From NCBI GenBank assembly GCA_938045315.1, contig CALINM010000012.1:1-49604 (forward strand): a stretch of DNA of 49,604 bases, written 5' to 3'. The translations under genes were made by a program, and so were the position numbers. This stretch comes from an uncultured bacterium. GTDB taxonomy: Bacteria > CALINM01. Below are positions 1,478 to 17,879 of the stretch, in pieces (positions within the stretch are counted from its first letter, which is position 1; each line of letters begins with the position of its first letter). Under the pieces are notes generated by a model. That model saw only the letters and a program-made list of their open reading frames with translations. It ran no database searches and was not told the origin of the DNA.

Positions 1478-1601
1478 TTTTGCCTCCTGTTATAACAATA
1501 CTTTATATAACAATATTTGTAGCTCTAATATTTTTCTACTGAATGGTTCATTAGAAATCTTTATTACATTTACTTATCATGTGGAAAAGGAGAGGAAGAA
1601 T
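1478..1601. promoter_or_regulatory. Divergent intergenic region with direct repeat TATAACAATA (1491-1500, 1506-1515)
   Basis: AT-rich gap between the minus-strand terminase cluster and the plus-strand head/tail operon; two exact 10-bp repeats, 15-bp period. Confidence 0.5.
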
Positions 1602-2747
1602 ATGAGAGTAGAAATTTTTAAGACCGGTACTCACACTGACTCAGCGGGCAATACCCGCACCTGGACAGAGAAAGACCTGGATACCATTGTGAGTAAATAT
1701 AATCCAGCTGAGCATGAGGCTCCTGTTGTAATAGGACATCCTGTGGATAATGCTCCAGCCTACGGCTGGGTGGAGAAGCTTGAAAGAAGGGGACAGTCTC
1801 TCTGGGCTAAAATTAAGCCCACTGTGCAGGAGTTTGTGGACTGGGTGAAGGCCGGGCTATACAAGAAGGTTTCTATTTCTTTGTATCCAGATCTGAGGCT
1901 CAGGCATGTGGGTTTTCTTGGGGCAATGCCCCCAGCAGTAAAGGGGCTTACCCCGGTGCAATTCTCTGACAGGGAATATGCAGAGTATGAATTCAGGGAA
2001 TGGACAACTGAGGAGAGGGAAAAGCTGGCAAAGGGATTAATAAAGGGAGAGTTTGCTGGACCTGATAGAACTTTTCCCATAGCTTCACCAGAAGATGTGG
2101 CTGATGCCTTCAGGCTTGCAGGGCATGCAGATGATCCCGATGAGGTGAGAAGAAACATTATAAGGATTGCTAAGAAATATGGCTGGACTGATGCTTTGCC
2201 AGAATCAGCTAAAAAATGGGCTGAGGAACACAATATAGAATTAAAGGAGGCAAGAATGGAAGAGTTAAAAGAGCTCGGGTTAAAACTTAAGGAACAGGAA
2301 GAGCTCATGAAAGAGTATAAGGAGCGTGAAATTCAAAAGGATGAGGAGATTGCAAAGCTTAAGGAGAGGATAAGGATGCTTGAGATGGAGAAAAAGAGGG
2401 CTGAGTTTGAATCCTTCTGTGAGGGATTAATCAGAGAGGGAAGGTTAACTCCAGCTGTTAAGCCAGTGGTAATTGATTTTATGGAGATATTAAGTCAGGT
2501 GGGAGAGTTTGAGTTTTCAGAGCCAGAGGGTAAGCTTAAGACAGAGCCACTTGAGAAATTTAAGAGTTTTTTAAGGGGACTGCCCAAACAGGTTGAATTT
2601 GGTGAGGTTGCAACGAAGGATATAGCAGTGGAAGCTAAAGGGTCTACAAAGGATTTAAAGGATTTGAGTGGATGGGATCTACTCAGGATTTATAGGGAAA
2701 GCCCACAGGAGTTTACAGAAATTTTAGAAAAATCAAGGAATAAATAA
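1602..2747 (+). CDS. Phage head maturation protease/scaffold (Mu I-like)
   Basis: MRVEIFKTGTHTDSAGNTRTWTEKDLDTIVSKYNPAEHEAPVVIGHPVDNAPAYGWVEKL..., C-terminal coiled-coil scaffold, followed by capsid. ATG at 1602 has an SD (ggagagg); the 1581 GTG in the ORF track is less likely. Confidence 0.8.
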   Translation: MRVEIFKTGTHTDSAGNTRTWTEKDLDTIVSKYNPAEHEAPVVIGHPVDNAPAYGWVEKLERRGQSLWAKIKPTVQEFVDWVKAGLYKKVSISLYPDLRLRHVGFLGAMPPAVKGLTPVQFSDREYAEYEFREWTTEEREKLAKGLIKGEFAGPDRTFPIASPEDVADAFRLAGHADDPDEVRRNIIRIAKKYGWTDALPESAKKWAEEHNIELKEARMEELKELGLKLKEQEELMKEYKEREIQKDEEIAKLKERIRMLEMEKKRAEFESFCEGLIREGRLTPAVKPVVIDFMEILSQVGEFEFSEPEGKLKTEPLEKFKSFLRGLPKQVEFGEVATKDIAVEAKGSTKDLKDLSGWDLLRIYRESPQEFTEILEKSRNK

Positions 2748-2758
2748 GGAGGTAGAGC

Positions 2759-3583
2759 ATGGCGACAAAGGTAAGTGATATAGTTGTTCCAGAGGTACTT
2801 TCTGCAATGATTTCTGCCCAGATTCCGGGTCAGCTTGCCATTGCTGGCACGGATAGGGTGGTGGTGCTGGATAATCTAAAAGGTAAACCGGGCGATAGGG
2901 TAAAAATACCTCGCTGGGGTGCAGTGGGTGAATTTGACGAGCTCCAGGAAGGTGTGGCCATGACGCCCGTTAATCTTACTGCCCAGTCCGTTGAAGCAGT
3001 GGTGAAGGAATTCGGGAAGTCTGTGGAAATTACAGAGCTTGCGCTTCTCTCCAGTTACGAGGATCCGCTTAAAGAACTTGCTTCTCAGTTTGCAAAATAT
3101 GCAGCAAGAGCTATTGATAAAGAACTTATAGCAGCTGCCAATACAACCACACTTTCCCATTCAGTGAATTCAACTATTAATCTCGATGCGATAGTTGATG
3201 CCCTTAGCCTTTTTCAGGATGAGCAGGAGGATGTGGTGCTTGTGCTTCATCCCAAGGTTTATGGAGACCTAAGAAAGCTTTCTGAGTTTAAAAGCCACAC
3301 TCAGGCAGCCTCTGAAGTTATTTTAAAAGGGTCTCTGGGTACAGTGTATGGTATGCCAGTTGTAGTAAGTAGATTTATCCCGGTGACTTCAGGTACCCCT
3401 CCTACATATACTAATATGCTTTTAAAAAAAGCAGCACTTGGTCTGTGGTATAAGAAGGAGATGGAGGTTAAGACAGATCAGGACATCCTGAAAAGAACTA
3501 CTGTGATTGCAGCAAATTCTATCTTTGCCTGTGCACTATTTCAGCTTGACCCACTGCCTGCTGCAAAGTTAATAACCCAGTAG
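2759..3583 (+). CDS. Major capsid protein (HK97-fold / N4-gp56-like)
   Basis: MATKVSDIVVPEVLSAMISAQIPGQLAIAG...GDRVKIPRWG...AIDKELIAA...VVLVLHPKVYGDLRKL; directly after protease/scaffold. Confidence 0.82.
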   Translation: MATKVSDIVVPEVLSAMISAQIPGQLAIAGTDRVVVLDNLKGKPGDRVKIPRWGAVGEFDELQEGVAMTPVNLTAQSVEAVVKEFGKSVEITELALLSSYEDPLKELASQFAKYAARAIDKELIAAANTTTLSHSVNSTINLDAIVDALSLFQDEQEDVVLVLHPKVYGDLRKLSEFKSHTQAASEVILKGSLGTVYGMPVVVSRFIPVTSGTPPTYTNMLLKKAALGLWYKKEMEVKTDQDILKRTTVIAANSIFACALFQLDPLPAAKLITQ

Positions 3584-3593
3584 GAGGTGTTTT

Positions 3594-3731
3594 GTGGGTA
3601 TAGGGACACTGAGAAGACACTATGAACAAGCTGACAATCCCAAACCTGCAGTCAAGCAAGAGGCTGCAGTTAAGCCAGAGGCAGAGCAAGAGGTTAAGAC
3701 AGAGCAAACAAAAAAGAAGGGTAAGAGCTGA
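3594..3731 (+). CDS. Small GTG-start phage ORF (45 aa), Lys/Glu-rich (gp35-position)
   Basis: VGIGTLRRHYEQADNPKPAVKQEAAVKPEAEQEVKTEQTKKKGKS*; SD AGGAGG at 3583-3588; absent from the ORF track. Confidence 0.6.
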   Translation: MGIGTLRRHYEQADNPKPAVKQEAAVKPEAEQEVKTEQTKKKGKS

Positions 3732-4162
3732 TGCCTTATTGCAGTCTTGAGGATATTAAGCAGGCAATCCCTGAAAAGAATATCATAGAACTTACAGATG
3801 ATGCAGGCACTGGAACGATAGAACAAAACAGGGTCAATGATGCCATCTCATATGCTGATCAGTTGATAGATGGATACCTGAGGGGAAGGTATACTGTCCC
3901 CCTCAATCCAGTACCTGAGCTCATTAAGAGGTTAGCGGCGGATTTAGCGGTGTTTCATCTCTACAGCAGGCGGTTCGAACTTAATATGCCAGAGGCTATG
4001 CTTCAAAGACGAAAGGAGATAATAAGGCTTTTGGAGCAGATACAAAAGGGCTTTATCAAACTGGGTATAGAGACACAATCGGGGCCTGGACAGGGACACT
4101 ATAAAACTAATAAAACTGGAGAGGATAGGGTATTTGGTGAGGATCTCTGGCTGAAATTTTAG
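3731..4162 (+). CDS. Mu gp36-like protein (DUF1320)
   Basis: MPYCSLEDIKQAIPEKNIIELTDDAGTGTIEQNRVNDAISYADQLIDGYLRGRYTVPL matches the DUF1320 signature. Confidence 0.88.
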   Translation: MPYCSLEDIKQAIPEKNIIELTDDAGTGTIEQNRVNDAISYADQLIDGYLRGRYTVPLNPVPELIKRLAADLAVFHLYSRRFELNMPEAMLQRRKEIIRLLEQIQKGFIKLGIETQSGPGQGHYKTNKTGEDRVFGEDLWLKF

Positions 4163-4399
4163 AGGTAAAAGAGCTTTTTAAATAGATTTAAACAGGGTTT
4201 CAGAGGTTTTGAGGGTTTTGAGAGAGAAAAGAGGTGAAATTAAGGGTGATTTAGACTGCAAAAGTACCTGAAAAAGCCCAAAATTGGCTTTTAAGAGGGG
4301 TTTTTTTAAAGAGGTAATATAAATGTATCCCCTAAAGTTTTTAAACGATTGTAAACGAATTTAAACAGGTTTTAAACAGGGGTATTTAAGGAGGTTGGA
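4163..4399 (+). promoter_or_regulatory. Non-coding gap with phased TTTAAACR motifs upstream of the lysis cassette
   Basis: AAAC cores at 4343, 4353, 4363 and 4374 (10-11 bp spacing), plus another TTTAAACAGG at 4187-4196. Confidence 0.4.
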
Positions 4400-4873
4400 A
4401 TGCTTTTAGGGGCAATTTTTGGATTGGTGGGATCTATAATCCCTGAAGGGCTCAAGTTTCTAAAGGAAAGACAGGATCACAGGCATGAAAAAGAGATGTT
4501 TGAGCTTCAGATGAGATATCAGCGGGAGATGGCTGAGGCAAGGATTCAGGAGGCCAGGGCACTGGCCACACTGGAGCTGGACAGAGAATCTTATAAATAT
4601 GCACCTTTAGAGGTGAAGCCCACAGGAAAAACCTGGCTTGATGCCCTGCAGGTGATGGGAGCCATGTATAACCAAACAGTTAGACCTACACTTACTTATT
4701 TGGTTGTGGCTTGCTGGCTTATGGTGAAGTATGCAAACTGGCAGATAGCGGGAGGAGGTCTTGCCAGTCTACCTAATATCTGGACTGAGGCGGACAATGA
4801 GTTTCTCTCCGCAGTGGTGATGTTTTGGTTTGGAGGAAGGGCTTTTAGTAGAACCTTTGGAAGGGCGAAATGA
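4400..4873 (+). CDS. Putative holin (3TM-type phage holin)
   Basis: N-terminal hydrophobic helix, charged coiled-coil, then C-terminal TM helices; overlaps the start of lysozyme (ATGA). Confidence 0.65.
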   Translation: MLLGAIFGLVGSIIPEGLKFLKERQDHRHEKEMFELQMRYQREMAEARIQEARALATLELDRESYKYAPLEVKPTGKTWLDALQVMGAMYNQTVRPTLTYLVVACWLMVKYANWQIAGGGLASLPNIWTEADNEFLSAVVMFWFGGRAFSRTFGRAK

Positions 4874-5313
4874 CAGAGAAAGGAATTGAGCTTGTGAAAA
4901 CCTTTGAAGGCTTTAGCCCAAAGATATATATCTGTCCAGCCGGGTATGAGACTATTGGGTATGGACATGTAATTACTCCAGAGGAGAGGGAAAGATTTGT
5001 AAGGGGTATCACAAAAGAGGAAGCAGAAGGGCTTTTAAAAGCTGATTTAAATAGGTTTGAAAGGGCGGTTAGAGGGCTTTTAAAGGGTTTTCAATTGCAC
5101 GAATACTGTATAGATGCCCTCACCTCTTTCGCATATAACTGCGGAATATACAGCTTCAAAGCATCAACCCTGAGAAGAAAGATACTTTCAGGGGAACTCT
5201 TTGAGGCAGCGGACGAATTCCTGAAGTGGTGCTATGGGGGAGGAAGAAAGCTTGAGGGGCTTGTAAGAAGAAGAAAGGCTGAAAGGGAACTTTTCCTTAA
5301 GGGACTCCTATGA
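4870..5313 (+). CDS. Phage lysozyme (GH24, T4-like)
   Basis: EGFSPKIYICPAGYETIGYGH gives the E-8aa-C-5aa-T triad typical of phage endolysins with Cys in place of Asp. Confidence 0.92.
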   Translation: MTEKGIELVKTFEGFSPKIYICPAGYETIGYGHVITPEERERFVRGITKEEAEGLLKADLNRFERAVRGLLKGFQLHEYCIDALTSFAYNCGIYSFKASTLRRKILSGELFEAADEFLKWCYGGGRKLEGLVRRRKAERELFLKGLL

Positions 5314-5795
5314 TGACTATAGCAGATATGGAAAAAACAATTATTGAAAGGCTTAAGGACAGGATATCAGGGGTAGAGGTTATCGCCTTTCCTGAAAAGC
5401 CTGCTGAGTATAAGTTGCTGCACCATAAGGGGGCAATTCTTGTAAGTTACAGGGGCTCAAGCTTTTCAGAACCACGGGCAACGGATGTGGTGGTGCAGGA
5501 AAGAAAGGTTGAACTGGATATCGTAGTGGTGATGAGGCATCTAAGAAGTCATGAAGGTGCTTATGCCTATCTTGATGCAGTAAGAACTCTACTTACAGGC
5601 TTTCGCTTACCTGGATGCTCAAAGATGTATCCCTTGCGGGAAGAGTTTATAAGTGAAGAGGCTGGTATCTGGCAGTATGCGATAACCTTTGCTTTCACAA
5701 TGCCAGCTATTGAGCTGGTAGAGGAGGAGCAGGTTGTGCTTCTTAAGAAAATTACAGTTATGGATGATTATGGAATAACGGAGGTGTTAAGATGA
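5310..5795 (+). CDS. Mu gp37-like protein (DUF1834)
   Basis: MMTIADMEKTIIERLKDRISGVEVIAFPEKPAEYKLLHHKGAILVSYRGSSF..., located between lysis and sheath genes. Confidence 0.8.
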   Translation: MMTIADMEKTIIERLKDRISGVEVIAFPEKPAEYKLLHHKGAILVSYRGSSFSEPRATDVVVQERKVELDIVVVMRHLRSHEGAYAYLDAVRTLLTGFRLPGCSKMYPLREEFISEEAGIWQYAITFAFTMPAIELVEEEQVVLLKKITVMDDYGITEVLR

Positions 5796-5980
5796 AGTAT
5801 GTGTATGAAGGAGCTTTTTCTGGAGTAACTATAGGAGATAGGGAAATTTTATTAATTCCAAATACTGAAGTGGAATTGCCTGAGGATAATGAGTATGTGC
5901 AAACTTTGTGCTCCCTGGGACTGCTTAAAAAGGTAGAACAGGTAAGTGAGAGCAGGAAGAAGAGGGAGGAAAAGGAATGA
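5792..5980 (+). CDS. DUF2635-like small phage protein
   Basis: Length and position immediately upstream of tail sheath; ATGA coupling with the upstream gene. Confidence 0.55.
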   Translation: MKYVYEGAFSGVTIGDREILLIPNTEVELPEDNEYVQTLCSLGLLKKVEQVSESRKKREEKE

Positions 5981-6016
5981 AAAGAAAACTTTTAAACCTT
6001 TTGAAGGAGGTTGAAG

Positions 6017-7267
6017 ATGCCAGCTAACTTTTTGCACGGTGTGGAAACCATTGAGATTGAAAAAGGACCAAGACCCATAAGGGCAGTAAAGTCTGCGGTG
6101 ATCGGACTTGTTGGAACCGCTCCAATTCATACAGTTGATCCAGAGTTTAGAACGGTGAATGAGCCTGTTTTGATTTTGAATGAGAGGGATGGGGTAAAGT
6201 ACTTTGGTCAGCCTGCTACAGGATATACTATCCCTTACGCACTGGATGCGATTTTTGATCAGGGCGCGGGAATTGTGGTGGTGGTAAATGTTTTTAATCC
6301 AGCAGTGCATAAAGATAACAATAATCAGCCAGACCCTACAAAAGTAATAGCAGCAGACATTATTGGCGGAGTGGATCCCTCAACAGGCAAGAGAAAGGGG
6401 CTTCAAGCCTTTAGAGACTGTTACAACCTTATGGGGTTTTTCCCTAAAATCTTAATAGCTCCTGTGTATGGCACTTTGAACTCGGTGGCAAGTGAGCTCA
6501 ATGCTATGGCACATGCACTTAGAGCTATGGCTATCGTGGATGCTCCTGTTGGGACTACCTTCAGTCAGGTTATAGCTGGAAGGGGTCCTAACGGCACTAT
6601 CAATTTCAATTATTCTTCAGAAAGGATGATACTCTGCTACCCACACCTTAAGGTTTATGATACTGCTACAGATACAGAAAGGCTTGAGCCTTATTCTCAA
6701 AGGCTTGCAGGGGTGATTGCAGCAAAGGATATAGAAAAGGGGTATTGGTGGAGCCCATCCAATACGGAAATAAAGGGCATTGTAGGGGTAGAAAGAAACT
6801 TATCTGCCATGATTAATGACCCAAATTGTGAGGTGAATATTCTTAATGAAAACGGGATTACGACTGTTTTTAACTCCTTTGGCACTGGAATAAGGACCTG
6901 GGGTAATAGAAGCGCGGCATGGCCAACGATAACACATCCAAAGAACTTCATTAATGTAAGAAGGACAGCGGATATCTTGCATGAGTCTATTGAATACTCT
7001 ATGCTCCAGTTTATTGATTACCCTATCAATGATGCTTTGATTGATGCCATCTGTGAGTCTGTGAATTCTTTTATTAGAACCCTTATTGCCAGAGGGGCTT
7101 TAATTGATGGTAAATGTTACTTCACAGAAGCTAAAAACCCACCCACTGAAATAGCTTTGGGGCATCTTACCTTTGATATGGAGTTTATGCCTCCTACTCC
7201 AGCGGAACGCATAACCTTTGAGAGCTTCATAAATATTGAATTCTTAAAGAATCTGGGGGGCAAATAA
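6017..7267 (+). CDS. Phage contractile tail sheath protein
   Basis: MPANFLHGVETIEIEKGPRPIRAVKSAVIGLVGTAP...GIRTWGNRSAAWP...INVRRTADILHESIEYSMLQFIDYPIND is typical of sheath proteins. SD aggagg then ATG 6017. Confidence 0.95.
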   Translation: MPANFLHGVETIEIEKGPRPIRAVKSAVIGLVGTAPIHTVDPEFRTVNEPVLILNERDGVKYFGQPATGYTIPYALDAIFDQGAGIVVVVNVFNPAVHKDNNNQPDPTKVIAADIIGGVDPSTGKRKGLQAFRDCYNLMGFFPKILIAPVYGTLNSVASELNAMAHALRAMAIVDAPVGTTFSQVIAGRGPNGTINFNYSSERMILCYPHLKVYDTATDTERLEPYSQRLAGVIAAKDIEKGYWWSPSNTEIKGIVGVERNLSAMINDPNCEVNILNENGITTVFNSFGTGIRTWGNRSAAWPTITHPKNFINVRRTADILHESIEYSMLQFIDYPINDALIDAICESVNSFIRTLIARGALIDGKCYFTEAKNPPTEIALGHLTFDMEFMPPTPAERITFESFINIEFLKNLGGK

Positions 7268-7506
7268 TGCAGGAGATACGCTTTAAGATAATGAAGGCTA
7301 TCTATGCTGAGATGAGAGCAAACCCTGAGGGCTACGGATTCCCTGAATGGGAACTTCCCAGGCTTGTGGGTGAGGACTATAAGTTTGACCTTCTCTATCT
7401 AATAGAAAAAGGATGGGTAAAAAGGCAATTCGGATATTTAAGATTAACAGCAGAAGGTATAGATGAGATAGAAAAAAATTCAGGAGGTAGAAAATGGCAA
7501 ACATAG
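7267..7506 (+). CDS. Small winged-helix-like protein inserted between sheath and tube
   Basis: MQEIRFKIMKAIYAEMRANPEGYGFPEWELPRLVGEDYKFDLLYLIEKGWVKRQFGYLRLTAEGIDEIEK: wHTH pattern (YLIEKGWV...LRLTAEGIDEIE). Confidence 0.6.
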   Translation: MQEIRFKIMKAIYAEMRANPEGYGFPEWELPRLVGEDYKFDLLYLIEKGWVKRQFGYLRLTAEGIDEIEKNSGGRKWQT

Positions 7507-8015
7507 CTGTAAATAAACTTACTAATGCCAATGTCTATGTGGATGGGGTGAGTTTTCTCGGCAGGGCTGAAGAGGTAACCCTGCCTGCTATTAAGGCAAA
7601 GACCGTGGAACACAAGGGGCTTGGCATGGTGGGGGTGGTGGAGCTTCCAGCAGGTATTGAGAAGATGGAGGCAAAGATCAAATGGAGCAGTCTCTATCCA
7701 GAGGTGCTGTATAAAGTGGCAAACCCCTATAAGCCTGTGCAGCTGCAACTGAGGGCATCTCTTGAGAGCTTTGATTCCTCTGGAAGAATAGCACAGCTGC
7801 CTGTGGTATGCTTTATGACTGCAAGCTTTAAGACATTTCCCGGCATAGGCTTCAAACATCAGGACCCTGCAGAAGTGGAGACAGAGCTTGCTGTTTCATA
7901 TTATAAACTGCAGGTAGGTGGTATGGATGTGGTTGAGGTGGATGCCTTTGCAAATATATGGAAGGTCAATAAGGAAGACATACTGGCAACTTATAAGGCA
8001 AATATTGGAGGCTAA
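7494..8015 (+). CDS. Phage major tail tube protein (P2 FII-like)
   Basis: MANIAVNKLTNANVYVDGVSFLGRAEEVTLPAIKAKTVEHKGLGMVGVVELPAGIEKMEAKIKW is typical of contractile tail tube proteins. Confidence 0.93.
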   Translation: MANIAVNKLTNANVYVDGVSFLGRAEEVTLPAIKAKTVEHKGLGMVGVVELPAGIEKMEAKIKWSSLYPEVLYKVANPYKPVQLQLRASLESFDSSGRIAQLPVVCFMTASFKTFPGIGFKHQDPAEVETELAVSYYKLQVGGMDVVEVDAFANIWKVNKEDILATYKANIGG

Positions 8016-8105
8016 ATGAAAAGGGACCGGGAACTCATAAGGAGAATACTTATGGTGCTTGAAGAAGGAGATATCTATGAAGATAAAAAAGAAGGTAGAA
8101 TCTAA
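8016..8105 (+). CDS. 29-aa ORF resembling the N-terminus of DUF2513 (remnant or leader)
   Basis: MKRDRELIRRILMVLEEGDIYEDKKEGRI*; starts directly after the tube stop codon (TAAATG) and overlaps the next gene start. Confidence 0.4.
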   Translation: MKRDRELIRRILMVLEEGDIYEDKKEGRI

Positions 8106-8379
8106 TGTCCTTACCTTTTCAGAGGTGGAGATAAGGGAGCCCCTTGTGGAGGATCTTATTCAGGCTGAAAGGATAGCTGGCAGTGCTGAGGGACTTAGTT
8201 TTGCCCTTGCTGTGCTTTCTCAGATAGCCACTTTTGATGGGAAAAAGTTACCACCAGAGGACTTAAGACGGCTAAGAGTAAGAGATTTTTTAGCCTTTGC
8301 CAGGGCTATGGAAAGCTTTGGTTTAGAGGAGCTGGCAAGGGAGTTATTGTCCTCACAAGAGAAGCAGGGTTCAGCCTAA
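8077..8379 (+). CDS. Phage tail assembly chaperone (P2 gpE-like)
   Basis: MKIKKKVESNVLTFSEVEIREPLVEDLIQAERIAG...SFALAVLSQIATFDGKKLPPEDLRRLRVRDFLAF; ATG at 8077 preceded by aaggag. Confidence 0.82.
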   Translation: MKIKKKVESNVLTFSEVEIREPLVEDLIQAERIAGSAEGLSFALAVLSQIATFDGKKLPPEDLRRLRVRDFLAFARAMESFGLEELARELLSSQEKQGSA

Positions 8380-8474
8380 ATGAGGTTAGAAAAATGAGTG
8401 TTTCTGAGTTTAGTTTCTGGCTTTCTGCGCTCAAGGAGTTTTTTGAGGAGATAAAGCCCACTTACGAGCCATAG
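8077..8474 (+). CDS. Predicted E/E' -1 frameshift product of the tail assembly chaperone
   Basis: T TTT TTA at 8286-8292 in register with gpE codons (gat ttt tta). The -1 frame is open from 8238 to TAG at 8472-8474 and encodes ...TREAGFSLNEVRKMSVSEFSFWLSALKEFFEEIKPTYEP. Confidence 0.75.
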
Positions 8475-8484
8475 AAAAGGACGG

Positions 8485-8556
8485 ATGAGGAAAAGATATA
8501 GAATAAGCAGGGAAATGGCAAAAAGAGGTAGCAAAAATATTAGGGCGAGGATGTAA
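8485..8556 (+). CDS. 23-aa very basic ORF immediately upstream of tape measure
   Basis: MRKRYRISREMAKRGSKNIRARM*; AAGGA upstream; stop abuts the GTG start of the tape measure gene (TAAGTG). Confidence 0.35.
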   Translation: MRKRYRISREMAKRGSKNIRARM

Positions 8557-10875
8557 GTGAATACACTGTTTTCCATAGGAATAGGATTACATCTTCTGGA
8601 TAAATTGTCAAGCCCTATGAGGGCTGTTACTCAGCAGGTGGATAATCTCACAAAAAGCATGAAGGCAGTCTCTTCTTCAGGACAGCAATTCAGTCGCAGT
8701 TTTGAGATAGTTGCAAAGACTGTGCAAAAGGCAACTGCGCCGTTCCAGCAACTTAGAGAGCAAGCAGATAAGTTTAAAAGCATAGGTCAGGGTATGGCTC
8801 TAAAAGGTGGTGCAGGTATGATGCTTGGGCTTGCTCCCTCTGTTGATGCTGCCGGGTTTGAAAAGGCAATGGCAGAGGTTGCCACACTTACTGATATGGG
8901 GGTTTCTGAGTTTCAAGATAAGTACGGTAAGCAGGTGCTTGAGCTTTCTGTTGAGCTTGGTGAGGACCCCACTACTGTCGTAAAAGGTTTGTATCAGGCT
9001 ATATCTGCTGGCATTGACCCAAAGGATGCTATAGATTTTATGAAAAAGGCGGGTCAGGCTGCTATTGCTGGTGTGTCAGATATATTTACTGCCACTGACC
9101 TTGCAACCTCTATTAAGAACGCCTATAACGTCCCCATGTCTGAGATGGGTAAGGTCAATGATGTGATTTTCCAGACTGTAAGAAAGGGTAAGACTACATT
9201 CACTGAGATTGCCCAGAGCTTTTCTCAGGTTGGAGCTGCTGCTGCAGGTGCAGGCATATCACTTGAGCATGTGCAGACTGCTGTTGCGCAGATGACCCTT
9301 GGAGGTGTAAGGACTGAAAGGGCATATACTTCGCTTAAATATGTGATTGATGCACTTGTGGCACCTTCAAATCAGGCAAAGAAGGCTTTTGAAAGGCTTG
9401 GCATTGAGATTAATGCAGAGACAGTAAGACAGAAGGACCTGCTTGGTGTAATGGATGAGCTTATGGGGGCAATAGGTCAGCTTTCTCTAAAAGAACAGGC
9501 AGAGCTTATCTCAGATATCTTTGGCTCTCAAGAGGCTCAAATGTTTGTTAAGGACTTTGGAACTAACAGAGATAAGTATCTGTCAATGCTAAAGGATATT
9601 AAAAACTCAACGGGCACAACAGAGGATGCTTACAAAAAGATGGCCGAGACATCGGCAAAGCAGTTCGAGAGGATGAAGCAGTCCTTTATGGCAATAAGGA
9701 TTGCTGCTGGCGCAACAATCCTGCCTGTGATTAATGTAATGTTAAAGGTTATTAAGGCGGTTCTTACACCCATTGCAGAGTTTGCTCAGAGGCATAAACT
9801 GCTCTCTGGAATCTTACTTGGTGGGGTTATTGCTATATCAGGGGTGGTTGCTGCACTTGGTGTTATGGGTATAGCAATCGGCATGGCTATTAAAGGATAT
9901 ACAAATATGAAGATAGCAGCATCACTTTTAACCACTCATAAAGGGAGGATGATAACTGCTATAAAAGGGATGACAACGGCACTGATACCTAATATTAGAG
10001 CTATGGCTGCCTGGATTGCCACGATGGCAAGGGCATCCTTTACAGGGGTTCTTTCTGGAATCAGGGCTTTATTATCTGGCATCAGAGCATTTAGCCTTAC
10101 TGCAATTGCAGGGCTCAGGGCTGTAAGTGTGGCTATGCTTACAACACCTGCTGGATGGCTTATTGCTGGCATTGCAGCACTTGTTGCTGCCGGGTATCTT
10201 CTCTGGAGAAACTGGGATAGGGTTAGCAAGGCTTTATCTTCTGTCTGGCAGTGGCTTGGGGAGAAGGGGAAAAAACTCCTTAATGTCTTCTTATGGCTAA
10301 ATCCTATCACTGCACCCGTTAAGGCTATCAATACACTCATTAAGTTTCTCTTTGGAGTGAATCTCTTTGAGGCCGGGAAAAGGATGATTGAAACCCTGTG
10401 GCAGGGGATTCTGGCTTTTGCCATGAAACCCGTTGAAGCAGTAAAAGGGATTGCAGAGAAAATAAGAAATCTCCTTCCCTTTTCACCAGCGAAAGAAGGA
10501 CCTTTTAAGGATTTGCATAGGGTTAAGATAATTGAAACAGTAGCTCGAACCATAAAGGCAACTCCACTAATAGAAGCTGTTTCTAATACTTTAAAACCAG
10601 TGAGGTCAGTGGTTGGACCACTTATACAGCCAGTCAGGCAGGTGCTTGAGCCAGTTAGGTCAGTGGTTGGACCGCTTATACAGCCAGTCAGGCAGGGGGC
10701 TGGAAAAGAAGCAGGAGGGGCTGTAATAACCGTTAATTACAGCCCTACTATTCATATAAGTGGTGTATCAGATAGGACAAAAGAGGAATTTGTAAAGATG
10801 CTTAAACAGCATCAGTATGAACTGATGAAACTCATTGGGGATGCACAAAACAAAATGATGAGGCTTGCCTACTGA
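8557..10875 (+). CDS. Phage tail tape measure protein
   Basis: 772 aa, TP901-type N-terminal core (GFEKAMAEVATLTDMGVSEFQDKYGKQVLELSVELGEDPTTVVKGLYQAISAGID...), long hydrophobic stretches; GTG start. Confidence 0.95.
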   Translation: MNTLFSIGIGLHLLDKLSSPMRAVTQQVDNLTKSMKAVSSSGQQFSRSFEIVAKTVQKATAPFQQLREQADKFKSIGQGMALKGGAGMMLGLAPSVDAAGFEKAMAEVATLTDMGVSEFQDKYGKQVLELSVELGEDPTTVVKGLYQAISAGIDPKDAIDFMKKAGQAAIAGVSDIFTATDLATSIKNAYNVPMSEMGKVNDVIFQTVRKGKTTFTEIAQSFSQVGAAAAGAGISLEHVQTAVAQMTLGGVRTERAYTSLKYVIDALVAPSNQAKKAFERLGIEINAETVRQKDLLGVMDELMGAIGQLSLKEQAELISDIFGSQEAQMFVKDFGTNRDKYLSMLKDIKNSTGTTEDAYKKMAETSAKQFERMKQSFMAIRIAAGATILPVINVMLKVIKAVLTPIAEFAQRHKLLSGILLGGVIAISGVVAALGVMGIAIGMAIKGYTNMKIAASLLTTHKGRMITAIKGMTTALIPNIRAMAAWIATMARASFTGVLSGIRALLSGIRAFSLTAIAGLRAVSVAMLTTPAGWLIAGIAALVAAGYLLWRNWDRVSKALSSVWQWLGEKGKKLLNVFLWLNPITAPVKAINTLIKFLFGVNLFEAGKRMIETLWQGILAFAMKPVEAVKGIAEKIRNLLPFSPAKEGPFKDLHRVKIIETVARTIKATPLIEAVSNTLKPVRSVVGPLIQPVRQVLEPVRSVVGPLIQPVRQGAGKEAGGAVITVNYSPTIHISGVSDRTKEEFVKMLKQHQYELMKLIGDAQNKMMRLAY
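10597..10695 (+). repeat. 54-bp-period tandem repeat within the tape measure gene
   Basis: Near-identical ccagtgaggtcagtggttggaccacttatacagccagtcaggcag units starting at 10597 and 10651, encoding PVRSVVGPLIQPVRQ twice. Confidence 0.9.
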
Positions 10876-11366
10876 TGTTTGCACAGCTTGGAGACATAAG
10901 GTTTGATCTTATCGCATACTTTGAGGGGCTTGAATCAACAAAGATGTTTAATTATGCAGAGCATGCTGTAATTGAGGGGAAGCCAAAACTGCAGTATATG
11001 GGTGAGGCGCTGGAGGAGATCAGGATTAAGATAAATCTACACATGGATTTCTGTAACCCTGAGGCAGAGTATAAAAAGATCATGGAGGCTGCATCAAGAT
11101 ATAAGCCACTTGCATTTATCTTTGGAAATGGTCTCTATAAGGGTGATTATGTGATCGAGGAACTCACAACAATAGAGGTGCAGACATTTAACGATGGCAC
11201 CCTGATGGCAGTGGATATGGAGCTTAAGCTAAAAGAGTGGGTCAGGGATAAGGTGGTAACGATGAAGAGCTCCACTGGAAAAAAGACACTCAGAAGAAAG
11301 GCAAAGCCACAGACACAGGTAGAACCAGGAGATATAAGGAGGCAGAAGATAGTTGGACAGGGTTGA
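10875..11366 (+). CDS. Phage tail protein U (P2 gpU-like)
   Basis: MFAQLGDIRFDLIAYFEGLESTKMFNYAEHAVIEGKPKLQYMGEALEEIRIKINLHMDFCNPEAEYKKI is characteristic of gpU. Confidence 0.92.
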   Translation: MFAQLGDIRFDLIAYFEGLESTKMFNYAEHAVIEGKPKLQYMGEALEEIRIKINLHMDFCNPEAEYKKIMEAASRYKPLAFIFGNGLYKGDYVIEELTTIEVQTFNDGTLMAVDMELKLKEWVRDKVVTMKSSTGKKTLRRKAKPQTQVEPGDIRRQKIVGQG

Positions 11367-11583
11367 ATACTACGAGTATATTACAAAAGAAGGCGATAGG
11401 TGGGACCTGGTGGCCTATGAATTTTATGGAGATGCCACCAGGTATGAGCCCATCGTTAGAGCTAATTTTTTTGATGTGGGCATAAAACCTATACTGCCCG
11501 GTGGACTTAAACTCAGAATACCTGTGCTGGAGTTAAAAAATCACATCCCCCCTGAGGAGCTACCACCATGGAAAAGGGCATAG
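11353..11583 (+). CDS. Phage tail protein X (P2 gpX-like, LysM fold)
   Basis: YEYITKEGDRWDLVAYEFYGDATRYEPIVRANF is characteristic of gpX. Confidence 0.92.
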   Translation: MDRVEYYEYITKEGDRWDLVAYEFYGDATRYEPIVRANFFDVGIKPILPGGLKLRIPVLELKNHIPPEELPPWKRA

Positions 11584-11960
11584 GTAAGAATATAAGAGAG
11601 TTTAACCTTTTTACCGCTGAGCTTTTTTCTCTGCTCTATGATAATTTTCCCAACCCAGTCGTTGTCGCTCCAGAGGAATTTGATGAAAGGGCAGACAGGG
11701 AGGCTATTAAAGTCTATGTCAACACTATGCTATTTTTGAAAGAAGAAGGCTTTATTAGATATGCAAAGGTGACCCCAGACAATGTTTTTATAGATGTAGT
11801 ATTAACTGCTAAAGGCTTAGCCCTGCTTAATCTTATCCCGGAAGGGATAACAGAGGGAAAAAGCCTTATTCAAAGTCTTAAGGAAGTTCTCCAGGAGGGC
11901 TCAAAAGTAGCTCTTAAAACCTTAATAGATACACTTCTTAAAGAGGGGATGAGGCTGTGA
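11568..11960 (+). CDS. Uncharacterised winged-helix-like protein inserted between gpX and gpD
   Basis: FNLFTAELFSLLYDNFPNPV...NTMLFLKEEGFIRYAKVTPDNVFIDVVLTAKGLALLNLIPEGI: helical N-terminus plus FLKEEGFIRY/VVLTAKGLALL wing-like pattern. Confidence 0.55.
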   Translation: MEKGIGKNIREFNLFTAELFSLLYDNFPNPVVVAPEEFDERADREAIKVYVNTMLFLKEEGFIRYAKVTPDNVFIDVVLTAKGLALLNLIPEGITEGKSLIQSLKEVLQEGSKVALKTLIDTLLKEGMRL

Positions 11961-12943
11961 GTGAACAGGTAAGAAAACCCATCTTTTTTCTGGAATATGA
12001 AAGCAGGGATATAACAGCATATATTACACCCTTTGTGCTGTCAGTTACCTATACAGATTATGAGCATGGAAAATCTGATGAGATAGAGATACAGATTGAA
12101 GATAGAGACCATCTCTGGAAATCCTCCTGGTATCCCACAAAAGGGGATGTTATAACCTTGAAAATTGGATATGAAGGAGAGCCTTTACTTCCCTGTGGCT
12201 CCTTTGAGATAGACGAAATTGAGCTATCAGCACCACCAGATATTATTAGCCTGAAAGGACTGGGAACGAATATTAAAAAAGCCTTAAGACAGGAAAACAC
12301 TAAAGCCTTCGAAGGTAAAACCCTAAAGCAGATTGCTCAGGAGATAGCAGGTAAACACGGCTTTGCACTGGTGGGAGAAATAAAGGACATAAAGATTAAA
12401 AGGATTACCCAGAAACAAGAAAGAGATTTAGCCTTCTTGAAAAGGCTGGCTGAAGACTATGGCTATGTCTTTAAGATCGCTGATAACAAGCTTGTCTTTT
12501 ATGAGATAGGAAAACTTGAGAGTGCAGGTACCATCTTTGTCATGGACAGAAAGGACATTATCTCCTTTAGTCTAAGGGATAAAACCCATGAACTTTATCG
12601 TGCCTGTGAGGTCTCCTACCATGACCCGAAGACGAAAAGGTTAATCACTCATACGGTAAAGGCTGAGGGCGTGGTAAAGGGTGATGTTTTGAAACTTAAT
12701 GAAAGATGTGAAAATAAAGAGCAGGCAATAGCTAAGGCTCAGGCAGCCTTGAGACAGAAAAATAGCTTTCAAACCGAGGGAAGTATAATTGTCACTGGCA
12801 ACCCAAAGCTTGTTGCTGGCTCAAATGTTGAGCTTACAGGGCTCCATATCCTTGACGGCAAGTATCATATTGTATCATCCAGACATAATATTGATAGAAC
12901 TTCTGGATATAAAACAGAGCTGGAGGTGAAAAGGGTTGCTTAG
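11957..12943 (+). CDS. Phage late control protein D / tail hub (gpD)
   Basis: FFLEYESRDITAYITPFVLSVTYTDYEHGKSDEIEIQIEDRDHLWKSSWYPTKGDVITLKIGYEGEPLLPCGSFEIDEIELSAPPD. Confidence 0.95.
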   Translation: MSEQVRKPIFFLEYESRDITAYITPFVLSVTYTDYEHGKSDEIEIQIEDRDHLWKSSWYPTKGDVITLKIGYEGEPLLPCGSFEIDEIELSAPPDIISLKGLGTNIKKALRQENTKAFEGKTLKQIAQEIAGKHGFALVGEIKDIKIKRITQKQERDLAFLKRLAEDYGYVFKIADNKLVFYEIGKLESAGTIFVMDRKDIISFSLRDKTHELYRACEVSYHDPKTKRLITHTVKAEGVVKGDVLKLNERCENKEQAIAKAQAALRQKNSFQTEGSIIVTGNPKLVAGSNVELTGLHILDGKYHIVSSRHNIDRTSGYKTELEVKRVA

Positions 12944-13529
12944 GTTTGGAATTGTTACCAATGTGGATGAAAAAAGGGCTATGGTAAGGGTGAATTTTCA
13001 GGATATGGACGGCACTATTTCTTACTGGCTACCTGTGCTTGTGCCTAAAAGTCATAAGGATAGGTATTACTATATGCCTGATATTGGGGAGCATGTGGTT
13101 TGTCTTATGGATGAAACCTGTGAAGAAGGCGTGGTTTTAGGCGCTATCTATTCTGAGGCCGACAACCCTCCTGAAAGAAGCAAAGATAAATATCATATTA
13201 AATTTGCCGATGGCACTACAATTGAGTATGACAGGGCAGAGCACAAACTAAGGGCTGATGTAAAGGGAGATGTAAGCATAAAAGTAACGGGAAGATGCGA
13301 TGTGAATTGCCAGAATCAGATATTTATAAGGAGTGCCACTAACATTACAATTCAGGCACCATCCCTTAATATGAAGGGTGGAAGCCCGGCAGAGGGAGAA
13401 TTTGAGGGAAATTTCAGGATTAGAGGAAATCTATATGTATACGGAAATATCGAAACAGAGGGCAATATAAATGCCTCAGGGAGTATTATCGATGCCGGTG
13501 GTAACACAAATCATCACAACCATTATTAA
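12936..13529 (+). CDS. Phage baseplate assembly protein V (spike)
   Basis: MLRFGIVTNVDEKRAMVRVNFQDMDGTISYWLPVLVPKSHKDRYYYMPDIGEHVVCLMDETCEEGVVLGAIYSEADNPP; C-terminal repeated beta-helix ending HHNHY. Confidence 0.93.
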   Translation: MLRFGIVTNVDEKRAMVRVNFQDMDGTISYWLPVLVPKSHKDRYYYMPDIGEHVVCLMDETCEEGVVLGAIYSEADNPPERSKDKYHIKFADGTTIEYDRAEHKLRADVKGDVSIKVTGRCDVNCQNQIFIRSATNITIQAPSLNMKGGSPAEGEFEGNFRIRGNLYVYGNIETEGNINASGSIIDAGGNTNHHNHY

Positions 13530-13544
13530 GTAGGGGAGTAAAAT

Positions 13545-13901
13545 GTGAAAATTGATGAAATAAAATCTCTATGGTGGCAACCCAAACGGGGAGAGATAGG
13601 AAGCATAGTTGAAGATATTGAGGATATCAATCAATGCATAAGAATAATCCTTGCCACCCCCAAAAGAAGTGATCCCCATAGACCGGAGTTGGGAAGTGAG
13701 ATATGGAAATATGTTGATTTTCCAGTTAACGAAGCTATCCCCCACATTATCAGGGAAGCCATGGAGGCTATTGAAAAATGGGAGCCAAGAATTGAGATTA
13801 AGAGAATTACTGCAATGCCAGAAGGCTCTCAAATCTTCTTAAAAATAGAGTGGGTCCTGAAGGAAACTCAAGAGCCCTACGTAAGTGAGGTAACCCTATG
13901 A
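13545..13901 (+). CDS. Phage baseplate protein W (gpW/gp25 family)
   Basis: INQCIRIILATPKRSDPHRPELGSEIWKYVDFPVNEAIPHIIREAMEAIEKWEPRIEIKRI. Confidence 0.92.
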   Translation: MKIDEIKSLWWQPKRGEIGSIVEDIEDINQCIRIILATPKRSDPHRPELGSEIWKYVDFPVNEAIPHIIREAMEAIEKWEPRIEIKRITAMPEGSQIFLKIEWVLKETQEPYVSEVTL

Positions 13902-15013
13902 AGGAAAAGCTTCCAGAACCAGAGTTTATCGAAAGAGATCCCGTTAAGATAACACAGGAATTAATAGAATTATATGAGAGATTAACCGGTAAAAAACTTT
14001 ATCCAGCACAGGTGGAAAGACTTCTTATAGACCTCATTGCCTATAGAGAAAACCTGCTCAGGATTGCCATTCAGGAGGCAGCAAAGCAAAATCTCGTTGA
14101 GTATGCAACTTTTCCCATGCTTGATTACCTTGGGGAGCTTGTGGGAGTAAAGAGGCTTCCAGCACAGCCTGCAAGAACTACCTTAAGATTTTATCTTTTT
14201 TCTCCTCAAAACTTTGATGTATTAATACCCAAAAGCACTGAAGTGGAGGCCAAGGATGGAAAATGCCTTTTTGAAACAGTAAAGGAGGCAGTGATAAAGG
14301 CTTCCGAGCTTTTTGTTGAAGTAGAAGCTCTTTGTAAAACTGCAGGCACCACAGGAAATGGCTACCTGCCAGGGGAGATAAATAATTTAATAACCCCTCT
14401 TGCTTATGTTGAAAAAGTAGAGAATATAACTACAAGTTTCGGTGGCACAGAGGTGGAAGACGACGGGAGACTGAGGCAGAGAATCAAAGAAGCCCCTGAG
14501 CGGTTCTCCAACGCTGGCTCAAGAGGCGCCTACCGTTTCTTTGCCATGTCTGCCCATCAAGACATGGTGGATGTGGCAGTGTTAAGCCCCCAGCCCGGAA
14601 TAGTTGAGGTTTATCCCCTAACCAGATATGGCACCCCCACCCAGGAGATACTTGACCTTGTATATACTACCCTGAACGCAGAAAAGGTAAGACCACTCAC
14701 AGATTATGTCAGGGTCTTACCACCAGTTCAAATAGATTTTTCCATCACTGCTAATATCACTCTCTATAATTTTGCAGATTCCAGAACGGTTCAGGAGATT
14801 TTGCAGGATAGATTGAGTAAATATATAGAAGAAATGAGAAAATGCCTGGGAAGAGATATAGTAAGAAGCCAGATTATTGCCCTTATAAATAGCGTTTACG
14901 GGATTTATAAAGTGGATTTAATTGAACCTCAGGCAGATAGAGTTTTAGCTGAAAAGGAATGGGCAAACTGTAACAGTATATCTATAAACATAGCAGGAAC
15001 AGTAGATGGCTGA
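13898..15013 (+). CDS. Phage baseplate assembly protein J
   Basis: ...YLGELVGVKRLPAQPARTTLRFYLFSP...GTTGNGYLPGEINNL...DGRLRQRIKEAPERFSNAGSRGAYRFFA is typical of gpJ. Confidence 0.95.
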   Translation: MKEKLPEPEFIERDPVKITQELIELYERLTGKKLYPAQVERLLIDLIAYRENLLRIAIQEAAKQNLVEYATFPMLDYLGELVGVKRLPAQPARTTLRFYLFSPQNFDVLIPKSTEVEAKDGKCLFETVKEAVIKASELFVEVEALCKTAGTTGNGYLPGEINNLITPLAYVEKVENITTSFGGTEVEDDGRLRQRIKEAPERFSNAGSRGAYRFFAMSAHQDMVDVAVLSPQPGIVEVYPLTRYGTPTQEILDLVYTTLNAEKVRPLTDYVRVLPPVQIDFSITANITLYNFADSRTVQEILQDRLSKYIEEMRKCLGRDIVRSQIIALINSVYGIYKVDLIEPQADRVLAEKEWANCNSISINIAGTVDG

Positions 15014-15701
15014 TAAGAGGCTAATACCAGAGGGCATAAGAGATCTTAGCACTGAGGCTTTTAATGAGCTTATAGACCGCCTGGGAAGCATTGACCTAAC
15101 CCCCCTGCTTGTCTATCTCATAGACTATGTTACACCTTCAGCTCTGCCTCATCTGGCAGAGCAGTTCCATGTCACTGGGCTTGAGGGCTGGGAGCTTGCT
15201 GAAACAGAAGAAGAAAAAAGGGCTTTAATTAAAAAAGCTATAGAGCTTCATAGATACAGGGGCACCCCCTGGGCTGTTAAAGAAGCTCTTAAGGCTGTTG
15301 GCTTTGAAGCAGATATATACGAATGGTTTCAGGAGTTGCCCTACCCTTATAATACCTTCTTCGGTGATATTTCTAATGCTCCCTATGAATTTTTTATCGT
15401 TGTAAATTGCTCAAAAATGTTCGGAAAGGATGTGTTATTATCAGGTGAAAATCAGCAAAGGTTAATATCCCTTATCAACGAATATAAAAATTTGAGAAGT
15501 CACTTAAATAAACTTGTTCTGTATCCTAAATATATTTCCAAAACAGGATATACAGATGCAATGACTAAGCCTGTATCTATATGTAATGCATATACTGAGA
15601 CACAAAGCAATTATCTTATTCCAGTGTCACTACCTTATATGACTTCTATGCATAGACCTGTTGCTGTTATTTATGCAGGAGAGGTGATAAATTATGGATA
15701 A
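15006..15701 (+). CDS. Phage tail protein I
   Basis: LTPLLVYLIDYVTPSALPHLAEQFHVTGLEGWELAETEEEKRALIKKAIELHRYRGTPWAVKEALKAVGF. Confidence 0.94.
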   Translation: MADKRLIPEGIRDLSTEAFNELIDRLGSIDLTPLLVYLIDYVTPSALPHLAEQFHVTGLEGWELAETEEEKRALIKKAIELHRYRGTPWAVKEALKAVGFEADIYEWFQELPYPYNTFFGDISNAPYEFFIVVNCSKMFGKDVLLSGENQQRLISLINEYKNLRSHLNKLVLYPKYISKTGYTDAMTKPVSICNAYTETQSNYLIPVSLPYMTSMHRPVAVIYAGEVINYG

Positions 15702-16362
15702 ATTAACACCAGTAATTACTCAAATAGGCAAGCAAAAGGCATTCAATGCCAGCATAAACGGTGTGAAAATAGCAATTAATAGAATAGGAGTTGGGTCCGG
15801 TGCTTATACACCAAACGAAAATAGAACAGCCCTGGTAAATGAAAGGGAGAGACTTCCCATAGTCTCAAGCGTAATAGATCCTGCCAATTCTACTATTGTA
15901 GTACACACCATAATCGAGAGTAACCTGGAATACTGGATAAGCGAAGTGGGATTTTACCTTGATGACGGCACACTCTTTGCAGTATGGAGCCACCCAACCT
16001 ATAAGCTTGGGTATAAAAGCAGGATAAACAGGTTTTTACTTGGCTATACAATAAAGATAGTGGACATACCTTTTGATGTAGTGCAGATTATAGACCAGGG
16101 GCAACCTCTTAATATTTATTATGCAACGGAGTTTGTTAATTTTACTAATTCTATTGTTAACATGGGAAGAGGAATGGTGGAGATAAATGATAAGTTGACT
16201 AACGCTAAAAATGAAATTTCAAGTCTTGACTCCTGGTGCAGGGTCAAATTCTCACACTTAGATAACATAATTAATAGTATGAATAAGATAGAACTTTTAA
16301 ATATTGCCAACACAATAACACTTATTTCAGACGCCATTCTGGCATTAAAATTAAAAAACTAA
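15694..16362 (+). CDS. Tail fibre / phage tail-collar fibre protein (DUF3751-like N-terminus)
   Basis: LTPVITQIGKQKAFNASINGVKIAINRIGVGSGAYTPNENRTALVNERERLPI...; directly follows gpI. Confidence 0.82.
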   Translation: MDKLTPVITQIGKQKAFNASINGVKIAINRIGVGSGAYTPNENRTALVNERERLPIVSSVIDPANSTIVVHTIIESNLEYWISEVGFYLDDGTLFAVWSHPTYKLGYKSRINRFLLGYTIKIVDIPFDVVQIIDQGQPLNIYYATEFVNFTNSIVNMGRGMVEINDKLTNAKNEISSLDSWCRVKFSHLDNIINSMNKIELLNIANTITLISDAILALKLKN

Positions 16363-16381
16363 ATCAAAGGAGGAAAGAAAG

Positions 16382-17128
16382 ATGAGTTTAGAGCAAAGAG
16401 TGACAGAACTAAGTAATAATGTAGCTAACCTGGTGCACAGGGTTACAACCCAGGCTGATCAATGGCAACAGGCAGTAAACCAGGCTCAACAGCAATTTCA
16501 AAACTTTATATCTAATGCACGCTTAGAGACGCCTTTTATTCGCATAAGCAAAAACCAGGCTCTTATAAAGCATCCGAGTGAGAATCGTCCTATTGATTGG
16601 ATAGTGCAGTGGGAAACAGTTGAGTTGCTTGAGTATATACCTGTTTATGATAATAACTCCAACAGAACCAATTGGCATGAAAGATCATTATTAGAACTCC
16701 TCACAGACAACCCCAATACCGCCCATATAAGTATGTCATTTAATATTCTTCATATAGTAACCAAATCAACATTCACAAATTGGAGTTGGGCTTTACAACC
16801 AACTTTTGGAATGAGTGCGAAATGGGAAAGCGTCGTCCCGGTCCAGCCTATGTCTTTTATGTCCTTAGGCAAGATTATTACAGGGTCAGTCAGGATAAGT
16901 CACCCAAGTTATTCTGCTCCTTTGCTACAGGAATATCCTAATTCTGAATGGAAATTATATGGTAGAGTAGTAACGAGCTTGTCCTCTCTAAAATTTACAA
17001 ATTTTCTTTTCTACTTACGACCAAATACCGATATATACATTGCTCTGCCTGCATTGGTCCTGGGTAGATTCCCATACGAAACATACAGGTGGACCTATTT
17101 TGTAAATATATTCAATGAAAGGAGGTAA
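16382..17128 (+). CDS. Putative tail fibre / receptor-binding protein
   Basis: N-terminal coiled-coil (VTELSNNVANLVHRVTTQADQWQQAVNQAQQQFQNF) plus beta-rich C-terminus, located at the fibre position of the tail operon. Confidence 0.55.
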   Translation: MSLEQRVTELSNNVANLVHRVTTQADQWQQAVNQAQQQFQNFISNARLETPFIRISKNQALIKHPSENRPIDWIVQWETVELLEYIPVYDNNSNRTNWHERSLLELLTDNPNTAHISMSFNILHIVTKSTFTNWSWALQPTFGMSAKWESVVPVQPMSFMSLGKIITGSVRISHPSYSAPLLQEYPNSEWKLYGRVVTSLSSLKFTNFLFYLRPNTDIYIALPALVLGRFPYETYRWTYFVNIFNERR

Positions 17129-17131
17129 AAT

Positions 17132-17443
17132 ATGCAGGAGTATATTCCAATAACCCTGTTAAGAGAAATGATTAAAACAAAACTTAGAGACCTCACTATA
17201 GACTTCATAAATTTACAACTACCGCCGGGATATAAAGACTATATAGATGTAGAAGTAACAGCCGCAAATCCAGCTGCACCGCAAGAATGGAGAGAGGAGG
17301 CGATAGGAATTTCACAGTGGTTTTATGGTATTTTTCAACAACTTGAGGCCAAGATAGAAGAAATAGAAAATATGACAGAAGAAGAACTATTAAACTTTCG
17401 TGCAGAAGAGTGGATTGACGCCTTACCACGACTTGAGTTATAG
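17132..17443 (+). CDS. Small phage protein downstream of fibre gene
   Basis: 103-aa ORF with good SD (aaaggaggtaaaat), last intact gene of the late operon. Confidence 0.5.
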   Translation: MQEYIPITLLREMIKTKLRDLTIDFINLQLPPGYKDYIDVEVTAANPAAPQEWREEAIGISQWFYGIFQQLEAKIEEIENMTEEELLNFRAEEWIDALPRLEL

Positions 17444-17460
17444 CATAAAATGATTTTTAA

Positions 17461-17480
17461 AAGGGCAAGTTTTTGCCCTT
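17461..17480 (+). terminator. Possible terminator hairpin after the phage late operon
   Basis: Perfect inverted repeat AAGGGCAA-GTTT-TTGCCCTT 18 bp after the last CDS; no strong U-tract, so possibly bidirectional or weak. Confidence 0.4.
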
Positions 17481-17484
17481 ATTG

Positions 17485-17506
17485 CAAAAATTCTCAAACT
17501 ATCCGT
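17485..17506 (+). repeat. Outlying copy of the 22-bp phage-end repeat
   Basis: CAAAAATTCTCAAACTATCCGT; 19/22 identity to the copy at 17641. Confidence 0.7.
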
Positions 17507-17640
17507 ATACTTTATGACAACAGGGCTGAACTTCATAAAAGAATCAAACAATCAATAACATCATGGCTTGGCCACGCCAAACACGCTAATAGCTCCAATA
17601 TTATCAAGAAGGTTTCAAATATTACATTCAGCCGCACCCG
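17507..17640 (+). pseudogene. Possible C-terminal remnant of a DGR-type reverse transcriptase
   Basis: In-frame YDNRAELHKRIKQSITSWLGHAKHANSSNIIKKVSNITFSR resembles the C-terminal S-x-x-SWxGHxxHA motif of phage/DGR-type RTs; no catalytic domain upstream. Confidence 0.35.
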
Positions 17641-17684
17641 TAAAAAATCTCAAACTATGCGTTAAAAAATCTCAAACTACGCGT
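17641..17684 (+). repeat. Two tandem 22-bp repeats at the prophage right end (putative transposase-binding sites, R1/R2-like)
   Basis: TAAAAAATCTCAAACTATGCGT (17641-17662) and TAAAAAATCTCAAACTACGCGT (17663-17684), one mismatch; 22-bp register and A-rich inner edge as in Mu attR. Confidence 0.8.
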
Positions 17685-17879
17685 TAAGTTATATTTATCC
17701 TTCGTATCCTCTTGATTTGTTGTCACAATTGCCCTTGTATCTCTTTGTACTATCCTTAATGCATTATATAACTCTTTAAACTCCCCTGCGGAAAGATTTT
17801 TTAGATAAGGTGGAGTTACATAAAAATATCCCTTTGAAATATCTTCAGCAAGTTTTTTTGGACTACCTTGTAAAGCCAT
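17685..17879 (-). pseudogene. Host ORF truncated by prophage insertion, translationally coupled to uvrD
   Basis: MALQGSPKKLAEDISKGYFYVTPPYLKNLSAGEFKELYNALRIVQRDTRAIVTTNQEDTKDKYN, then reads into the phage-end repeats (LTRSLRFFNA*). TAATG overlap with uvrD. Confidence 0.7.

Follow-up and report, generated by a model that had tools for sequence, protein, structure and literature searches.

The window, that is, the whole stretch of 49,604 nt analysed here, contains the right end of a Mu-like prophage, and fused in frame to one of the end sites lies a short reading frame (17507–17662, + strand) which, judged by its homology, encodes the C-terminal end of a reverse transcriptase (RT) of the type found in diversity-generating retroelements (DGRs). 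Very likely, this stump is the 3' end of a lost DGR RT, the cassette having been deleted or replaced while the tail beside the right end was kept.

Identity of the reverse transcriptase stump

The peptide YDNRAELHKRIKQSITSWLGHAKHANSSNIIKKVSNITFSRTRKKSQTMR* belongs to a 71-codon ORF in the window's ORF list (17450–17665, +), of which the stump, as delimited by PHROG, RT profile and alignment, takes up the C-terminal 40–50 codons (SITSWLGHAKHANS...ITFSR). Its frame continues into the end site R2, with the stop at 17663–17665. The 5' portion of the ORF (17450–17506, +) consists of a hairpin stretch plus an outlying 22-nt site and is not RT-like, the match to the RT profile beginning at about 17495.

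The sequence-only reading had suspected a DGR-type RT C-terminus at 17507–17640 and had proposed a comparison with RT profiles, which bears it out. In the PHROG search, phrog_1423 ('Reverse transcriptase') matched ORF residues 17–68 at E=1.3e-6. Moreover, a profile built from 59 intact RTs, each with a YxDD-type motif and a length of 240 codons or more, and obtained through alignment scans of the genome and of viral contigs (20 and 50 loci returned, respectively), matched the six-frame window at 17444–17662 with E=2.5e-10; the rest of the window gave no match below E=8, and 0.7 was the lowest value reached in the reversed window. Only profile positions 322–371 of 373 are covered. When the phages were searched by tblastn, the weak matches obtained (E 0.01 to 0.2) fell only on the DGR RT C-termini of ACA1/ACA2 and VP58.5, and alignment of the stump with phage RT C-termini showed that they share SWLGHAxHAxS and, close to where the protein ends, a final F.R.

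Pfam and NCBIfam searches of the segment gave nothing significant, as expected of a piece falling outside the RVT_1 domain, and the PADLOC and PDB sequence searches gave nothing useful. A single-sequence scan of the viral contigs with the fragment detected no relatives, and the order-, class- and phylum-level searches, which reached three genomes, left it unmatched outside its own genome. The segment is too short for an RT phylogeny. Using as criterion a 60–250-nt repeat pair with at least 75% of the mismatches at adenines of one copy, A-biased TR/VR pairs were present in 48 of the 51 loci that had an intact, motif-bearing RT and enough flank to be assessed, and in 0 of the 39 RT-less phage loci taken as controls. 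Since the profile is, in addition, specific to the stump within the window, the tail is assigned to the DGR RTs. That it might derive instead from another RT (group II intron, retron or defence RT) could be argued from the shortness of the piece and the variability of RT C-termini, but the lack of a PADLOC match and the DGR nature of 48 of the 51 assessable motif-bearing loci make such an origin very improbable.

Missing parts of the cassette

No further RT piece and no catalytic YxDD domain were detected by the 59-RT profile in the six-frame window. No TR/VR pair was found there either, by the same scan that finds pairs in 48 of 51 RT loci, and no RVT_1 domain was found in the source genome, a fragmented MAG of 92% completeness. 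For Avd there is only a positional candidate, the ORF at 17132–17443, for which Pfam gave no match at E=1 or below. The sequence-only reading, which had seen no catalytic motifs, TR or Avd-like gene and had spoken of a decayed DGR, is supported by the window scans and by the narrow profile coverage of the segment. Because the catalytic domain and the TR/VR pair of a functional DGR are missing from the window, as is an Avd match at the position expected of it, and the genome yielded no RT, the segment is a stump.

A different outcome was obtained for the fibre-like protein of PHROG 8748 encoded at 16382–17128 (+), which had been suggested as the former DGR target. No A-biased repeat partner was found for it in the window and no FGE/C-type-lectin match in Pfam, and a homologue was absent from every fetched DGR-bearing or related phage locus; scans of the viral contigs and of phages with the fibre likewise returned no relatives. 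Its structure, predicted without an alignment, had a pLDDT of 37 and was unusable. The role of former target is therefore not supported. Elsewhere in the genome, an FGE-sulfatase pseudogene with several stops (C122:5378–6047) was weighed as a possible orphan DGR target but set aside, as it adjoins a groEL-like gene and shows no repeat pair.

The prophage and its ends

The block at 1581–17443 (+) contains Mu-like head, tail, baseplate and fibre genes by PHROG and Pfam matches, those of a contractile tail among them. Phage_Mu_Gp36 (5e-35) and Gp37 (6e-48) were both over their cut-offs, whereas Mu-like_Pro (9e-5) remained below its own. The block closes with a tail-collar fibre (15694–16362), the fibre at 16382–17128 and the 103-aa ORF at 17132–17443. 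Just 3' of the latter, a perfect 8-bp hairpin with a 4-nt loop (17461–17480; fold z -1.9) may be a terminator or a DGR-type hairpin.

A 22-nt repeat then follows, with three matches in the window against none expected in shuffles: an outlying, R3-like site (17485–17506, +), with the core seen in the left-end sites on contig C200, and the tandem sites R2 (17641–17662, +), fused in frame to the stump, and R1 (17663–17684, +), both located by repeat search. The sites carry TAAAAAATCTCAAACTA, and the core AATTCTCAAACTAA is common to the window and to the phage locus L122. Comparison with a congener's genome (G001) places the right terminus of the prophage (...TTATA-3') at 17685–17693 (+), followed by the target-site duplication TTTAT (17694–17698, +; ATAAA on the other strand), found again at C200:1914–1918. 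Host DNA matching G001 begins at 17695, and an interrupted host ORF occupies 17699–17879 on the - strand, with an intact 87-aa version in G001; the ORF listed at 17655–17879 is the 5' part of this host ORF running into the phage. The small host ORF that the prophage splits directly adjoins a UvrD-type helicase gene.

Contigs C200 and C12 match opposite sides of one position in G001, with ATAAA at both junctions, so G001 represents the empty site, and the insertion made a 5-bp duplication. The phage side of C200 has three copies of the 22-nt site at the left end, against three at the right end, together with two small helix-turn-helix genes, one of them CI-repressor-like. On account of the shared G001 position, the ATAAA junctions and the 22-nt sites at both ends, C200 and C12 hold opposite ends, left and right respectively, of a single transposable prophage whose termini read TA...TA, and the repeats are putative transposase-binding-like sites. 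What the sequence-only reading called phage-end repeats are hence real, and their nature has been refined to that of Mu-like end sites flanked by a 5-bp duplication. Transposition was preferred to an integrase-type att site, as no more than 5 bp are common to the two junctions. The middle of the prophage, presumably with its transposase, falls outside the window, and the sole Mu-transpos_C match in the genome is on contig C127, beside an AAA-ATPase-like gene, a setting that did not connect it with this phage. PMC8705779 describes transposable prophages whose ends are TA-TA or TG-CA, there with 6-bp duplications, and PMC6199706 and PMC5883640 give duplications of 5 bp for Mu-like DGR phages.

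Relatives with intact cassettes

The sequence-only reading had also pointed to related phages as the place to look for an intact cassette, and one was found in L041, which encodes a Mu-type transposase and whose baseplate proteins are 39–51% identical to those of the window (about 45% for baseplate protein J). Its gene order is tail fibre, FGE-type target with VR, bAvd, TR, RT, an adenine methylase-like gene and the 22-nt tandem, with nine of the ten TR/VR mismatches at A. In L054, which also has bAvd, no gene follows the RT, whose stop codon falls within the 22-nt tandem; in L062, L110 and L111 the tandem follows 40–120 nt after the RT. The RT position thus matches that of the stump in these five loci. 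Among the J relatives that have an RT, L099 is the closest (61%), its contig ending at the RT stop with the right end unreadable; L122, bearing the window's core site, has no RT. No close relative of the window phage was found in which such a right end carries an intact RT. The window looks like an L054-type right end stripped of everything upstream of the RT tail.

Two side observations were made among these loci. In L041 (8250–9017) and L122 (10219–11139), the last gene ahead of the right-end sites encodes an adenine methylase, of the D12 class by Pfam in L122 and similar on visual inspection in L041; in Mu this place is occupied by mom. In L134 (15490–16815) and L135 (5346–6671), an additional RT C-terminal fragment (profile positions 315–367) comes directly after an intact DGR-type RT and is either an independent RT-tail remnant or a duplication.

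A second stump and the fate of the frame

Contig C205 of the same genome carries a second stump, with 78% DNA identity over 133 nt, which runs into degenerate R2-R1 tandem copies and is without the upstream frame seen in the window. Stump against stump, dN/dS was about 0.76 on few sites, a value close to neutral and consistent with decay. The stump is probably without protein function. The 71-aa ORF could also be taken for a small expressed protein merely resembling an RT tail, its frame being open over all 71 codons; nevertheless, the start of the ORF consists of hairpin and end site, the C205 copy does not have the same upstream frame, the dN/dS is near neutral and the RT match is strong (E=2.5e-10), which leaves this reading extremely improbable. 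Over 3.6 kb, the C205 locus shares 98.7% identity with one on contig C46 of G003, the genome of another species, owing to either horizontal transfer or mis-binning; when a 2-kb window query including the helicase side was compared with the G003 genome, only the stump matched.

Proposed history

On the reading that we favour, the loss of a resident cassette, the DGR RT gene would once have been the last gene of a Mu-like phage, abutting or overlapping R2-R1. Target, Avd, template repeat and the catalytic part of the RT would later have been deleted, or the present fibre module would have taken their place. The RT tail would have survived, probably since a longer deletion meant losing the end sites needed for transposition: as an end without R2-R1 presumably cannot transpose, deletion or replacement would have stopped short of them. 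We infer this order of events, and the cause of the tail's survival, around what is observed, namely the homology of the tail, the absences, the Mu-like ends and the relatives' cassettes.

A history in which the phage never had a full DGR, and in which a right-end module (RT tail plus R2-R1) was recombined from another Mu-like phage, draws on the mosaicism of phages. The second stump with the same end on C205 and the fibre genes without relatives among DGR-bearing loci would suit such a passive arrival, but the full cassette occurs at the same place in L041, L099, L110 and L111, so that loss in place is the simpler account and the imported module appears unlikely.

On another reading, the tail would have been kept because it now has a role in the right transposition end, setting the spacing from R3 to R2-R1 or acting as protein-binding DNA. 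The stump exactly fills the interval between the outlying and the tandem sites, and the 78% DNA identity to the C205 copy extends into R1. Nevertheless, no outlying third site was seen near the right ends of L054, L062, L041, L082 and L079, and visual inspection showed none ahead of the C205 copy; such a role, conceivable from the sequence layout, is rather doubtful. It is likewise a tentative and somewhat unlikely generalization that RT tails in Mu-like ends are a recurrent scar, DGRs being repeatedly lost up to the end sites, with some tails now serving as end architecture.

Comparison with known systems

An RT tail fused to right-end transposase sites offers a simple marker of a lost hypermutation system, the scar of a lost means of receptor switching, and counts of such stumps could gauge how often DGRs are lost, a frequency invisible to whole-RT surveys. 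Among the titles and abstracts that our literature searches of open-access papers returned, none described RT stumps at transposition ends. DGRs in Mu-like transposable phages of Firmicutes are known from Toussaint 2013, as cited in PMC5883640 and PMC4406082. Those phages are, like the window phage, transposable and DGR-associated, and Mushu is reported to make a 5-bp duplication (PMC5883640); in contrast, the window keeps the RT tail only, with no TR, VR, Avd or catalytic domain. The Bacteroides hankyphage (PMC6199706) shares Mu-like transposition and 5-bp direct repeats with the window phage, whereas its DGR is an intact cassette with A-specific variation. Vibrio phage VP58.5 and Pseudoalteromonas phage ACA1 have RT C-termini about 40–45% identical to the stump, but they are other phage types with an intact cassette and a TR-like peptide, RGGNWNNGSNAG, at the RT start, and in VP58.5 a tail sheath gene lies downstream. 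A further parallel is L041/L123 (IMGVR_UViG_3300045950_000264), Mu-like as well, with related baseplate genes, 22-nt tandem right-end sites and a post-tail DGR, yet with the cassette intact and an adenine methylase gene standing between it and the right end. Mu-like phages with DGRs are already known, and the stump at a transposition end is a new instance of their decay.
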